DNA of 32,731 nt from a bacterium (GTDB taxonomy: Bacteria; Planctomycetota; Phycisphaerae; UBA1845): assembly GCA_024231775.1 (NCBI GenBank), contig JAAEQG010000742.1, forward strand, positions 1-32,731, written 5' to 3'. Positions 7,165 through 13,598 of this stretch are shown here, in pieces. Position 1 is the first letter of the stretch; each line of letters begins with the position of its first letter. Under the pieces are notes generated by a model. The model searched no databases. It was not told the origin of the DNA and saw nothing but the letters and a program-made list of their open reading frames with translations. The position numbers and the translations under genes are program-made.

Positions 7165-7200
7165 TCGCCGCCTCTGCGGTTGTGGGCAGGTGGCGGAAGG

Positions 7201-8916
7201 ATGGAGGATCAAAAGTTGATCATGACCACGGAAAGTAATCCGGGCAATCCGATCGAGACTGCGATTGTCGAGTTGATACAGCTTGGGCAGAAGCGGGGCT
7301 ACCTCACCTGGGAAGAGCTGAACGAGGCTATCCCCGACGAGGCGGTCACCCCCGACCACCTGGATGCGATCCTGCTCCGTCTGGAGGAGCGCAAGATCGA
7401 CATGGTCGATGAGATCGAAGCCGAACGGCTGGAGGCCGGCAGGAAGTCCAAGAAGTCGAAGCGCGATGGGGACGGCAAGACAGATCCGCCCCGCACCGCT
7501 ACGGCGGACGAGGTTCCGGTACGCAGAATCGACGACCCCGTGCGGATGTACCTGACCCAGATGGGCGAGATCCCTCTGCTAACTCGCAAGGAAGAGATCC
7601 GCCTGGCCAAGAAGATCGAACTTACCCGCATGGCCTTCCGCCAGAAGGTGCTGGAGAACGACTACTGCGGGTCTCAGGCGGTGGACATTCTCCAACAGGT
7701 GCGCGACGGACGCCTGCCCTTCGACCGCACCATGAAGATCTCCACGTCCGAACAGGCCGCCAAAGCCACAGTGCTGGCCCGCATGATCGCCAACCTGCCG
7801 ACGGTCCGGGGTATGCTGGAACAGAACGAAGCGGACTGGAACAGCCTCCAGGGCGGCCGGGTGCCGGCGGCGGTCCGGCGCGAGACTGCCCTGCGTCTCA
7901 AGCAGCGCCGGCGAAAGATCTCCAAACTGCTCGAAGAGCTTTCCCTGCGCACCAGCCGGGTGCAGCCGCTCATGCGCAAGCTGATGAACCTCAACCTCAA
8001 GATGAGAGATCTGGAGCGGCGCCTCGTCGCCCAGAAGAAGCGCCAGACCGTAGCCGATGACGATCTGGCGGCGATGAAGGAAGAATGCCAAGGCATCCGT
8101 TCGCTGGTCCTGGAGGATAGCGACTCGCTGACCCGGCGTCTGACCGGTATCCAGCGGGTCTTCGGCGAGTACGAGGACTCCAAGCGCAAGCTCTCCGGCG
8201 GGAATCTGCGCCTGGTGGTGAGCATCGCCAAGAAATACCGCAACCGTGGCCTGAGCTTCCTGGACATTATCCAGGAGGGGAATACCGGATTGATGCGGGC
8301 GGTCGATAAGTACGAGTACAAGCGCGGATACAAGTTCAGCACATACGCGACTTGGTGGATTCGCCAGGCCATCACCCGGGCCATCGCCGACCATGCCCGC
8401 ACCATTCGCATTCCGGTACACATGATCGAGACCATGAGCCGCCTGCGCAACATCAGCAAGCAGTTGCTCCAGGAACTCGGCCGAGAAGCCACCATCGAGG
8501 AAATCGCCACCCGCGCGTCCATGCCGGTCAGCGAAGCCCGCCGGGTGCTCAAGATCAGTCGCCAACCCATCTCCCTCGATCGTCCCGTGGGCGAAAGCGA
8601 AGACTCCTACTTCGGCGACTTCATCGAAGACGAGGCGGCGGAGTCTCCCATCAGCACTGCCGGCGGGGGTATGCTCTCCGAACGCATTGAGGAGGTCCTC
8701 AAGACCCTGACGTACCGCGAGCGCGAAATCATCAAGCTCCGTTACGGAATCGGAGACGGATACACCTACACCCTCGAAGAAGTCGGAAAGATCTTCAAGG
8801 TCACCCGGGAACGGGTCCGCCAGGTGGAAGCCAAAGCCATTCGCAAACTTCAACATCCGGTGCGGGCGCGCAAGCTGGAAGGCTTCCTGGACGTCCTCGC
8901 CCAAGCTAGTCAGTAG
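7201..8916 (+). CDS. rpoD: RNA polymerase primary sigma factor
   Basis: Region 2 [61 protein letters not shown]; region 4 [33 protein letters not shown] open from 7180; ATG at 7201. Confidence 0.97.
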
Positions 8917-9009: not shown

Positions 9010-9034
9010 AAAGAGCTGCGTCCTCGTTTCGACA
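9010..9034 (+). repeat. 25-nt repeat copy 1 (left flank of HEPN locus)
   Basis: AAAGAGCTGCGTCCTCGTTTCGACA, one mismatch to copy 2. Confidence 0.85.
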
Positions 9035-9045
9035 CCCGCCCCAAC

Positions 9046-9070
9046 AAAGAGCTACGTCCTCGTTTCGACA
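9046..9070 (+). repeat. 25-nt repeat copy 2 (left flank of HEPN locus)
   Basis: AAAGAGCTACGTCCTCGTTTCGACA. Confidence 0.88.
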
Positions 9071-9252
9071 TCTGGAGAAAAAGCACTCAGGAGCAACAGA
9101 TTAGATGCGATTGCCCTGCCCCTTCTGTTGGAGTAGTCAGCATGGAATTGACGCGATAGCGCGAACCTGCGATACTGCCCCGTTTCGAGTATTGAATGGC
9201 CCCTGGGGACGCTACCGGTTTGCGCGCGAGCACGAATAAGGGAGTCACGATC

Positions 9253-10480
9253 ATGCAACTTCGAGATAAAGACATTCGTCATCATCTTTGGAAGACGTTT
9301 CAGTCTGCGCTTGCTGCGCTTGAGGACAGACCAATATCTGCGGCGATATGCAGGGGACTGGTGGGGGGACGCCCCCCCCCCTTCTCTGATGACTGACGAT
9401 CGGCTTCATGTCGTTGATGAAGCCATAGAGCAACAGAGCCTCTGCTGCTTCTTTGAGGACAAAGTGGTAGCGGGTCTGCCCCACCCTCGCTACTGCACAT
9501 CAGAAGACCTCGTCTCCGCGTTCAGGACGCAGATGGTCTCGTCTATCGCGGTCGCCGAGCCTATCGGTGCCGCGGAGTTTGATGAGGTCTATGAGCGGTT
9601 TATGCTTGCCGTTGACGCGTTCTGCGGCGAGGAGCACGTGTCTGAACCGATTCCAATCGTGACTAGCGGTCTTGCGAAGGGCGCTGCCGTAAACCCTGTT
9701 CGGTTCTGGGGTGGTGGCAGTTTTCTCACGGCTGATCGATTCCGCGTTTGGGTTGTTGGCAGCCTGCCGTACATGTACGACCCTGCATGTGAAGATCCCG
9801 GTTCTTGTGCGTCGCGGTGCGTTTATGTGTCGATCTGTGCGACTTGTACTAAGGATGCGTTCAGGAAGCTAACAGAGGAGTTGCCAGCAGTATTGCGCGT
9901 GCTGTTCTCGTCAGACGTGCTCGTTAATTGGAACGGCTGGCCCGAGGATTTTGGAGTGGCGCCCGCACTCATCGACATGTACTTCAGCAATGTAAAGACG
10001 AAGGACTCCATTGATAGACGCATCCGGAATGCAATCCAGTTACTTATCGACGCGGATTCTAACTGCAGCCGAGGCGTAAGTATCGCCCTCAACGTGGCGG
10101 CGTTGGAGGCGTTGTTGGGAGAAAGGACGGATAGTATTGCAGGTTCTCTCGCCGATAGCACTGCGGTCCTTCTGGAGCCGGACCTTAACTATCGGTCAAG
10201 AGCGGTCCGGCACATAAAACAACTCTATCACATACGTTCACGGGTGCTGCATGGACAGCAGCTTGAAGGGGAAGTAGGGATCCTGTCTGATGCACGACAG
10301 GTAGTCTCCGGGGCGATGAGGGCTATTGTCGAGAGATGTCAGTTCATGAGGCGAATCGACCAAACCCCTGAGAGGCCAAGCGACTTGCTGAAAGAGCTGA
10401 AGGAGAGCAAGTTCGGCGGTGGCCCACCGGCGGGTGTCTCTGAGTCTTCGGTTACCGGGTTATGGAGGCACGCGCCGTAG
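9253..10480 (+). pseudogene. HEPN (Apea-like) domain protein, frame-disrupted at a C10 tract (phase-off allele, true pseudogene or homopolymer error)
   Basis: Frame 1 ORF from ATG 9253 (MQLRDKDIRHHLWKTFQSALAALEDRPISAAICRGLVGGRPPPFSDD*) runs into a C10 tract; frame 2 then encodes the remainder (SLMTDDRLHVVDEAIEQQ...). C-terminal HEPN-like helices with R-x4-H (RSRVLHG, 10235-10252). Confidence 0.6.
9372..9381 (+). repeat. Homopolymeric C10 tract in the HEPN gene
   Basis: GGGGGG ACG CCCCCCCCCC at 9363-9381. Confidence 0.95.
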
Positions 10481-10489
10481 GCCACGGAT

Positions 10490-10512
10490 TCGAAACGAGG
10501 ACGTAGCTCTTT
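10490..10512 (-). repeat. Inverted copy 3 of the flanking repeat (right flank of HEPN locus)
   Basis: TCGAAACGAGGACGTAGCTCTTT is the exact reverse complement of 9046-9068. Confidence 0.9.
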
Positions 10513-10528
10513 CTTGACGCGGGTTGCA

Positions 10529-10607: not shown

Positions 10608-13598
10608 CTACTTGCGCACCGTGGGCGTGATCTGCAGCTTGACCTGCTTGTCGTCGCGCAGGACCACGATCGAGACCGCCTGGTCGGGCTTAACGGCGTT
10701 GAGCACGACCGAGTAGTCCTCCAGGCTGCGGATCTCCTGGCCGGCGAACTCGATGATGATGTCACCGCCCTGGAGCCCCGCCTTCTGGGCGGGGCTGTCG
10801 CCACTTACGCCGCTGATCTTCATTCCGGCGACGTTGCCGGCGGCGAAGTCAGGGACCGTGCCGGTGAAGATGCGCCGGCGACCTCCACCGCCGCCCTTGG
10901 GAGTGGCTCGTTTGACCTCGGCGTATGCCGGGGAGGTGGCACGTTGGACGAGTTCGATTCCCAGCTCCCGGGCGAAGCGGGCGATTCGAGTCATGCCCAG
11001 GTAGTTCAGCGTATCCGCATCGTCGGTGGGGCGGTTGTAGTCGTCGTGGATGTCGGTGAACATCGAGAGCACGGGTACTCCCGCGGGGTAGAACGCCGTG
11101 GTGTCGGTGGGGAGGTAGGGATCGTCCTGCAGTGACAGATTCAGCGGAACACGGACGTTGATCCTCTCTATCCAGGAGCGCCACTGCGGCGACGACCCCA
11201 CCGCCTGGACCAGCAGCTTGCCCGCCTGCATGCGCCCGACCATGTCGAAGTTGACGTAGGCTTTGATCCGGTCGAGCGGGCAGGGAGCGTGCTGGGCGAA
11301 GTACGAAGATCCGATGATCCCGATCTCCTCACCAGACCAGCAGGCGAAGATCGTCCCGCGCCGGGGCTGATGATCGCCTGCTTGCTGGTGGGCCTGGGCG
11401 AGCGCCGCAGCCAGTTCGAGCACGGTCGCGGTCCCCGAGGCGTTGTCGTCCGCCCCGTTGTGGATCTGTCCTTCCTCGCCCGCCAGCGCTCGCGAGCCGC
11501 CCGCCTCTCCGTGGCCGATGTGGTCGTAGTGGGCGCCGAACACGATGAACTCGTCAGCCCGTTCGTCGTCGCCGGTACCGGGCAACATGCCGACGACGTT
11601 GCGGCAGCGACCTTCGCGCCGTTCGAGATGCATGGTCGGCCCGACGTATGTCTTGGTGACGCCCTTGAAGTCGTCGGGGATGCTCCCGGTGTCCAGCAGG
11701 GTCTGCCATTCGCCCAGGTTCTTACCGCTCTGCTGGAGCAGGCGATTGGCGGCATCGACCGTCAGGCAAGCCGCCACAATGCCCGCGTCACTTGCGGAAC
11801 GCGAAAGGGACAACAGCTCGCCGGCGCCGGGGGTGTTCGGCCCGACGACCAGCAGGAAACCGGTGGCGCCGTGCTGCTTGGCTTGCATGGCTTTGTAGCG
11901 GGGGTTGCTGTACAGGCCGTACCGGATGCGCTGCTCGGTCTCAAGCTTCTGCGGTACGTCGTCCAGCACCAGGACGATCTTCCCGGCGACGTCCAACCCC
12001 GCGTATGAATCGTACTTACCCTGGCCTTTCTCTTCGGGGACCACCAAGCCGTACCCGACGAAGACCAACTCGCTATGCACCGCGGCGTTGGCGGTGAAGG
12101 ACAGCGGTCGAAAGTCCTGCTCGGGGGTCAGCGGATCGAACGTCGTCGCGTGGGGGTTGTCGGTGAATCCCAACTCGTTCTTCTCGGGGATCATCTCCAC
12201 GCCCTGGGGGAAGGGGAACTCCTGGAAGTAGCTCCCGTTGTCGCCCAAGGGTATCAGCCCGGCTTCCTTGAACCGTGCGGCGATGTATTCCCCCGCCGCG
12301 TTCACACCCTTGGTCCCGGTCATGCGCCCTTCCAAAGCGTCCGCCGCGAGGAAGCTGACGTGAGCGTAGAGATCGTTGCTGGTGATTGCGGGCTTGAGGT
12401 CGCCCTTGGCCTTGGGCGGCGGACCCGCTTCCCAGCCGCCGTTGGGTACATGGGCGGAGGATTCGGGTTCGGGAGTCCCGCGCGACGGCGCGGCGCGCAC
12501 TGCTGCGAGGGCTGCTTGGTGGTCCCAGTCAGCCAGGAAGAGTTGGGCGCGGCCGCGTCCCGGGGTGTTTCGTCCGCTAGTCCAACTGAAGGTCTTACCG
12601 CCCGGAGCGAACACCGGCAGGCCGTCAAAGCCGTCCGTGTGGGTCACGCGCACCGGTTGCTTCTCTCCGGATGCGGCGGCGATGTAGATCTCGAAGTTGG
12701 CGAACCCCAGTTTGTTCGAGCCGAACGCGAAGTAGTCACCCGAGGGGTGCATGTACGGAGCCCAGGACATGCACTTGAAGTCGGTCAACTTGCGGCGGTC
12801 GCTACCGTCCAGCTTCATCGTATAGACGTCGCAGAGCAATCCGTTCTCTTCGAAATGACGCCAGATGATCCGCCGGCCATCGGGGGTGAAGAACGGCCCG
12901 CCGTCCTCGCCAGGCCACTCGGTCAACCGGCGCTGCTGCGAACCGTCCGCGTTCATCAGGTATATCTCGCAGAAGTGCGCGGGTGAGCGCTCGAAGCGAG
13001 CCTGATCCTCCGGCGACATCTGGTCCGTGGGATAGACCTGGCGGTTGGAGGCGAAGACGATCAGCTCGCCGTCCGGCGAGTAGGCACACTCCGCGTCATA
13101 TCCGAGAGTCTCGGTGAGGCGGAGGGGGTTACGCCCGCGGGAGTCGGTGGCGAAGATGTCGTAGTGTTCGTCGTAGTCCCAGCGACGGCGCTCCCGGGTG
13201 GGGTTGTTCCGTTCCGCGTATTCCTCTTTCTGTTTGTCGCGGGCTCGGGGATCGAGGTGGGTCGAAGCGAAGAGCACCTGGTCGGTCCCCGGACGGAAGA
13301 ACGAGCACGTCGTCCGTCCGAATCCGGGGGAGATCAGACGGACCCGCCCGGTGGTCAGATCGAGCGTGTGGATCTGGAAGAACGGGTTTCCCGGATAGCG
13401 CTCGCTCTGGAAGATCAAGTGCGCTCCGTCCGGTGAGAAGTAGCCCTCGCCGGCGCGCCGCCCCTCGAACGTCAGTTGCCGCGCCTGGGTGATGAAGCGG
13501 TCGGACGCAACCGTTTCCGCCGCGAAGCTCCCGGCGGTTGCGCCGAAGGTCATCGCCCAGACCGTACCGATCATCAACCGTTGCCACTGGATGTACAC
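10608..13598 (-). CDS. Secreted M28-family metallopeptidase with N-terminal TolB/PD40-like propeller repeats and C-terminal PDZ domain
   Basis: Repeated YFSPDGAHLIFQSER / AYSPDGELIVFASNR / FFTPDGRRIIWRH; GAHYDHIG, NGADDNASGTA, WSGEEIGIIGS M28 motifs; C-terminal PDZ GVSGDSPAQKAGLQGGDIIIEFAGQEI. Confidence 0.92.
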   Translation of the reverse strand: MYIQWQRLMIGTVWAMTFGATAGSFAAETVASDRFITQARQLTFEGRRAGEGYFSPDGAHLIFQSERYPGNPFFQIHTLDLTTGRVRLISPGFGRTTCSFFRPGTDQVLFASTHLDPRARDKQKEEYAERNNPTRERRRWDYDEHYDIFATDSRGRNPLRLTETLGYDAECAYSPDGELIVFASNRQVYPTDQMSPEDQARFERSPAHFCEIYLMNADGSQQRRLTEWPGEDGGPFFTPDGRRIIWRHFEENGLLCDVYTMKLDGSDRRKLTDFKCMSWAPYMHPSGDYFAFGSNKLGFANFEIYIAAASGEKQPVRVTHTDGFDGLPVFAPGGKTFSWTSGRNTPGRGRAQLFLADWDHQAALAAVRAAPSRGTPEPESSAHVPNGGWEAGPPPKAKGDLKPAITSNDLYAHVSFLAADALEGRMTGTKGVNAAGEYIAARFKEAGLIPLGDNGSYFQEFPFPQGVEMIPEKNELGFTDNPHATTFDPLTPEQDFRPLSFTANAAVHSELVFVGYGLVVPEEKGQGKYDSYAGLDVAGKIVLVLDDVPQKLETEQRIRYGLYSNPRYKAMQAKQHGATGFLLVVGPNTPGAGELLSLSRSASDAGIVAACLTVDAANRLLQQSGKNLGEWQTLLDTGSIPDDFKGVTKTYVGPTMHLERREGRCRNVVGMLPGTGDDERADEFIVFGAHYDHIGHGEAGGSRALAGEEGQIHNGADDNASGTATVLELAAALAQAHQQAGDHQPRRGTIFACWSGEEIGIIGSSYFAQHAPCPLDRIKAYVNFDMVGRMQAGKLLVQAVGSSPQWRSWIERINVRVPLNLSLQDDPYLPTDTTAFYPAGVPVLSMFTDIHDDYNRPTDDADTLNYLGMTRIARFARELGIELVQRATSPAYAEVKRATPKGGGGGRRRIFTGTVPDFAAGNVAGMKISGVSGDSPAQKAGLQGGDIIIEFAGQEIRSLEDYSVVLNAVKPDQAVSIVVLRDDKQVKLQITPTVRK

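Follow-up and report, generated by a model that had tools for sequence, protein, structure and literature searches.

Is the C10 run near the 5′ end of this putative RNA-targeting gene a dedicated switch that takes the gene in and out of frame, or has the sequence simply gained a base there? The gene lies in a 32.7-kb window, the whole stretch of DNA analyzed here, which is contig C742 of a draft genome (G000; 6.7 Mb in 1,677 contigs); apart from C10, no C/G run in the window reaches 8 bases. By direct reading, the frame opened by ATG 9253 crosses the tract and terminates after 47 amino acids, and coding continues one frame over for 363 codons, in a frame that is itself open right through the tract (Table 1). 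The original prediction placed a break of the reading frame at C10, held that C9 would unite the two frames, and pointed to a G6/C6 stem at the site. All three observations are confirmed: removal of one C joins the frames, and the runs, separated by ACG, pair as a 6-bp hairpin in the minimum-energy fold and in the centroid fold alike. The fold of the region as a whole is no better than that of shuffled sequences (z −0.76), and the region is thus not unusually structured overall. A change of tract length moves the frame between open and closed at C10, as it would at a contingency locus.

Table 1. Features at and around the C10 run (window coordinates)
Feature	Position	Strand	Remarks
Left arm of 35-nt inverted repeat flanking the gene	9034..9068	+	Direct copy of its core, AAAGAGCTACGTCCTCGTTTCGA, at 9010-9032
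Weak sigma-70-like promoter match, TTGACG-17-GATACT	9148..9176	+	Upstream of ATG 9253; 1 found vs 0.4 expected by chance
AATAAGGGAG-like Shine-Dalgarno candidate	9235..9243 (approximate)	+	About 10 nt 5′ of ATG 9253; read from the sequence
Frame-1 open frame	9253..9396	+	47 codons plus TGA 9394-9396; 43 codons to tract end; probable true N-terminus
Upstream extension of the frame-2 ORF from TTG 9311	9311..9388	+	Probably not the true start; the invariant proline follows after 59 residues
G6 run	9363..9368	+	Pairs with the C run in a 6-bp stem
C10 run	9372..9381	+	+1 break of the reading frame; read from the sequence
Overlap of ATG 9389 and frame-1 stop TGA 9394, ATGACTGA		+	Read from the sequence
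Frame-2 body	9389..10480	+	363 codons plus stop; orphan RxxxxH (RSRVLHG) protein
C-terminal all-helical domain with invariant RSxxLHG	9962..10480	+	Model pLDDT 90
Right arm of 35-nt inverted repeat	10490..10524	-	91% repeat

The interpretation of the break depends on which of three candidate starts is the true one. Eight planctomycete homologues were compared (L003, L007, L009, L010, L018, L019, L020, and L021), each of which consists of one open frame of 422 to 482 residues from its likely start, with 70 to 88 residues before an invariant proline. The corresponding count in the window gene is 78 for the joined frames read from ATG 9253, 59 from TTG 9311, and 33 from ATG 9389. This agreement in length favors ATG 9253, which, on comparison with the family, is probably the true gene start. 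Hence, the suspicion that the automatic TTG 9311 start misdescribes the gene is probably right, and the finding that had been named in advance as telling against a broken gene, homologues whose N-terminus begins after the tract, was not encountered. The N-terminal region thus agrees with the family in length, but the similarity of the 43 residues themselves is weak. A 22-column block in this region scores 11.8 in frame 1, a value matched by 0.16% of 20,000 shuffles (p 0.0016), as against 8.3 in frame 2, which puts frame 1 modestly ahead; the same score is reached at nine positions across the six frames of the window, this site included. When scored with a profile HMM of the whole family, the 43 residues add nothing (238.3 bits for the joined protein, 238.7 from TTG 9311, and 239.2 from ATG 9389), and the amphipathicity of the N-terminal helix is no better than that of shuffled sequences. 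Residues 35 to 44 of the L007 model, the counterpart of the tract, have a pLDDT below 50, which places the C run in a variable linker. The tract is not conserved among the homologues, the matching linker being variable in all eight.

One alternative is that the break is of no consequence, with the functional protein made from ATG 9389 (or TTG 9311), possibly through termination and reinitiation at ATGACTGA after a short upstream frame. The in-frame position of ATG 9389, its overlap with the TGA, and the openness of frame 2 through the tract are all compatible with this, as are the codon statistics for the 39 codons upstream of the tract, which do not favor frame 1 (log-likelihood ratio [LLR] −6.3, against +0.5 for frame 2), a comparison of low power in a gene that is codon-atypical throughout. 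However, a start at either position would leave the protein with an N-terminus 11 to 55 residues shorter than that of every homologue and would remove the predicted helices 4-9 and 12-30 of the L007 model, and neither start is preceded by a Shine-Dalgarno sequence. We regard an internal start as rather unlikely. Nevertheless, the overlap of ATG 9389 with the frame-1 stop means that the C10 state need not be fully OFF: translation reaching TGA 9394 could reinitiate at ATG 9389 and yield an N-truncated protein even from the longer tract.

A further possibility is that +1 slippage on the C run, by the ribosome or during transcription and whether programmed or basal, allows the full protein to be produced from the C10 gene. 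The shift required is indeed +1, CCC-C is presented as a classic +1-prone site for tRNA-Pro in PMC4519876 and PMC7577736, and a hairpin adjoins the run. Against this, the hairpin is built from the slippery run itself instead of lying downstream; the tract is not conserved in any homologue; and neither a stop nor a rare codon directly follows the run, frame 1 continuing for four codons. Taken together, slippage of this kind appears most improbable.

The original prediction had taken the protein for a putative HEPN effector. The R, S, L, H, and G of RSxxLHG are invariant in nine aligned sequences, giving the R-x4-6-H motif of that superfamily, and the C-terminal model (pLDDT 90) shows a helix (75-96) ending in R92...H97, followed by a loop and a second helix (105-131). 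The motif is thus predicted to close one helix of a helical bundle and lead into the loop that follows, as it does in HEPN domains (PMC3710099). To this extent the assignment stands, but it gains nothing from database comparisons: Pfam, NCBIfam, and PADLOC profiles gave no match, PF18739 (HEPN_Apea) gave none at E<=10 either to the window or to the loci of the homologues (nine genomes), and a sequence search of the PDB returned none. Likewise, two Foldseek searches yielded nothing significant (best E 0.019 and 0.30; top TM about 0.2 or below). We accordingly describe the product as an uncharacterized RxxxxH, HEPN-like protein, for which HEPN identity is plausible at the level of the motif; any RNase activity is putative.

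The gene has rpoD (7180-8916) on one side and, on the other, an M28-peptidase/PDZ gene encoded on the opposite strand (10608-13598); it stands alone beside rpoD. It is absent from both congeners and from 112 of the 114 genomes of the order, one other genome of which has it. Homologues were not found in plasmids, phages, or viral contigs, and a scan of genome contigs recovered only an already known relative. This solitary site, the absence from the congeners, the single further occurrence in the order, and the 35-nt inverted repeats flanking the gene together indicate that it likely arrived horizontally. Degenerate copies of the flanking repeat occur on six other contigs and in neither of the two congeners; given that these are degenerate single copies, transposon ends and a dispersed intergenic repeat are equally likely interpretations. 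Some relatives are found in more suggestive company: at L097:2664-9969 a type I-like N6 methylase and a PDC-S28-like helicase stand directly ahead of the homologue, in what is possibly a defense operon, and others neighbor a GajB-like helicase (L095) or an integrase (L098). Further relatives sit among unrelated genes.

Whether the tract is exceptional can be judged from the rest of the genome, in which C/G runs were listed by pattern search and a set of 9- to 10-base runs was taken for gene-level inspection. Thirty-two separate runs of 10 or more are present where 55 to 88 would be expected (independent bases, 60-63% GC); such runs are therefore rarer than expected, and a C10 run is in itself unremarkable. 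They are neither over-represented nor selectively placed in contingency rather than housekeeping genes. Two further genes are broken at such runs. The first is fdhD (L027, G000:C217:3861-4888), split at a G10 (C217:4323-4332), where the PF02634 match passes from one frame (positions 1-84) to another (83-236); fdhD of the congener G002 (L094) is intact, with one 282-aa frame and the nine bases GGCGGAGGG at the site. The second is an enoyl-CoA hydratase-family gene (L072 = G000:C665:100-4100) split at a C9/G9 run (G9 complement at L072:2053-2061); its PF00378 match (3-104, 40.7 bits) ends at the G9 and extends to 3-178 and 64.8 bits after a frame shift there. These two genes and the window gene are each one base too long at the run, although three of three breaks in the +1 direction is not significant. 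Neither fdhD nor the enoyl-CoA hydratase gene is a plausible contingency gene, and hence a generic cause is to be preferred to a switch. The locus L081 (G000:C957:4200-8200) was considered as another broken gene and set aside: its frames for a CbiX-like protein and a tetrapyrrole methylase adjoin at a G9 (L081:2034-2042) and may represent two neighboring genes or a broken fusion. Separately, we observed C/G runs of 17 to 21 within about 130 nt of five contig ends (C336, C399, C1021, C1454, and C1512), which suggests that the poly-G sequence there is artifactual.

The original prediction had seen here the layout of a contingency locus. On such a reading, slippage at the C run would toggle the gene in and out of frame and generate a mixed population. 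Its attractions are the 5′-proximal position of C10 beside the G6/C6 hairpin, the defense-like setting of some relatives with the type I-like methylase and helicase or the GajB-like helicase, and the precedent of poly-G switching in the defense gene pglX (PMC4365076). The proposal is nonetheless not borne out: equal +1 breaks occur in two housekeeping genes, long C/G runs are not enriched genome-wide, no comparable frame break was noted in any of the eight homologues, and no allele of another length was seen in the single draft assembly, which has no strain-level comparator in the searched collections. We consider it decidedly improbable. In a more elaborate version, the gene would belong to an RxxxxH family not yet described, would travel as a single-gene cassette flanked by the inverted repeats, and would be truly switched by tract length, with reinitiation at ATGACTGA giving an N-truncated product at C10; this is very improbable.

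We instead favor homopolymer length error or incidental slippage, rather than a dedicated ON/OFF switch, as the probable explanation. The sequence as written would carry one base too many at C10, the intact state having one C fewer; the extra base may have arisen as a length error at the homopolymer, in a draft assembly that is fragmented, or it may be an incidental slippage allele at a run kept for no purpose, and the breaks in the window gene, fdhD, and the enoyl-CoA hydratase gene would share one cause. Taken singly, sequencing error has slightly less than an even prospect, and incidental natural slippage is unlikely. As part of the same explanation, and with it probable as a whole, the joined protein of about 408 residues would be a real single-gene planctomycete protein of patchy distribution, with C10 predicted to fall between N-terminal helices, in a linker of low conservation. 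The N-terminal length, the +1 breaks in the two other genes, and the contig-end poly-G favor this explanation. Further, the body is open over 363 codons with the invariant residues of the family, indicating that gene decay is not advanced. On the other side, nine inspected runs of 9 to 10 inside clear long genes keep their frame (those encoding NuoL-like, TldD/PmbA-like [786-aa], RHS, amidohydrolase, sodium:solute symporter, dockerin, amino-acid kinase, and FtsH proteins, along with a 256-aa frame), so runs of this length do not generally carry consensus errors; the weak N-terminal sequence similarity also counts against it. A lesson on method follows: with controls from the same assembly (other breaks at C/G runs) and the intact fdhD of a congener, a contingency locus can be told apart from a generic homopolymer problem without first consulting reads.

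Several parallels are offered by known systems. Homopolymer frameshifts in metagenomic assemblies (PMC3277595; also PMC8808543) resemble the present case in that a one-base error splits an otherwise intact gene. In metagenomic Illumina contigs, such errors are found in about 1% of genes (PMC3277595), a rate that is an average over genes. The HEPN superfamily RNases, including ApeA/BMEI1217 (PMC3710099), share with the window protein an R-x4-H at a helix end in an all-helical domain, and some relatives of the window gene lie near restriction genes. Unlike them, the window family lacks a profile match (PF18739, Pfam, NCBIfam, or PADLOC) or a fold match in the PDB; and whereas ApeA-NTD1 is described as mostly beta, the N-terminal region of the window protein is mostly helical with a short beta segment. 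The closest parallel for a switch is pglX of the phage growth limitation system of Streptomyces coelicolor (PMC4365076), in which a C/G homopolymer likewise lies inside a gene of a GC-rich bacterium, a one-base change of length breaks the frame, and the context is one of defense. Switching rates and tract changes were measured for pglX, whereas the window gene is known from one draft assembly and one allele. Poly-G switching of a defense gene is already known from pglX, and a real switch here would add a further case of that kind; a literature search turned up no phase-variation study for Planctomycetota. Were the switch real, the window gene would be a phase-variable putative RNA-targeting gene in that phylum and a second GC-rich example beside pglX.
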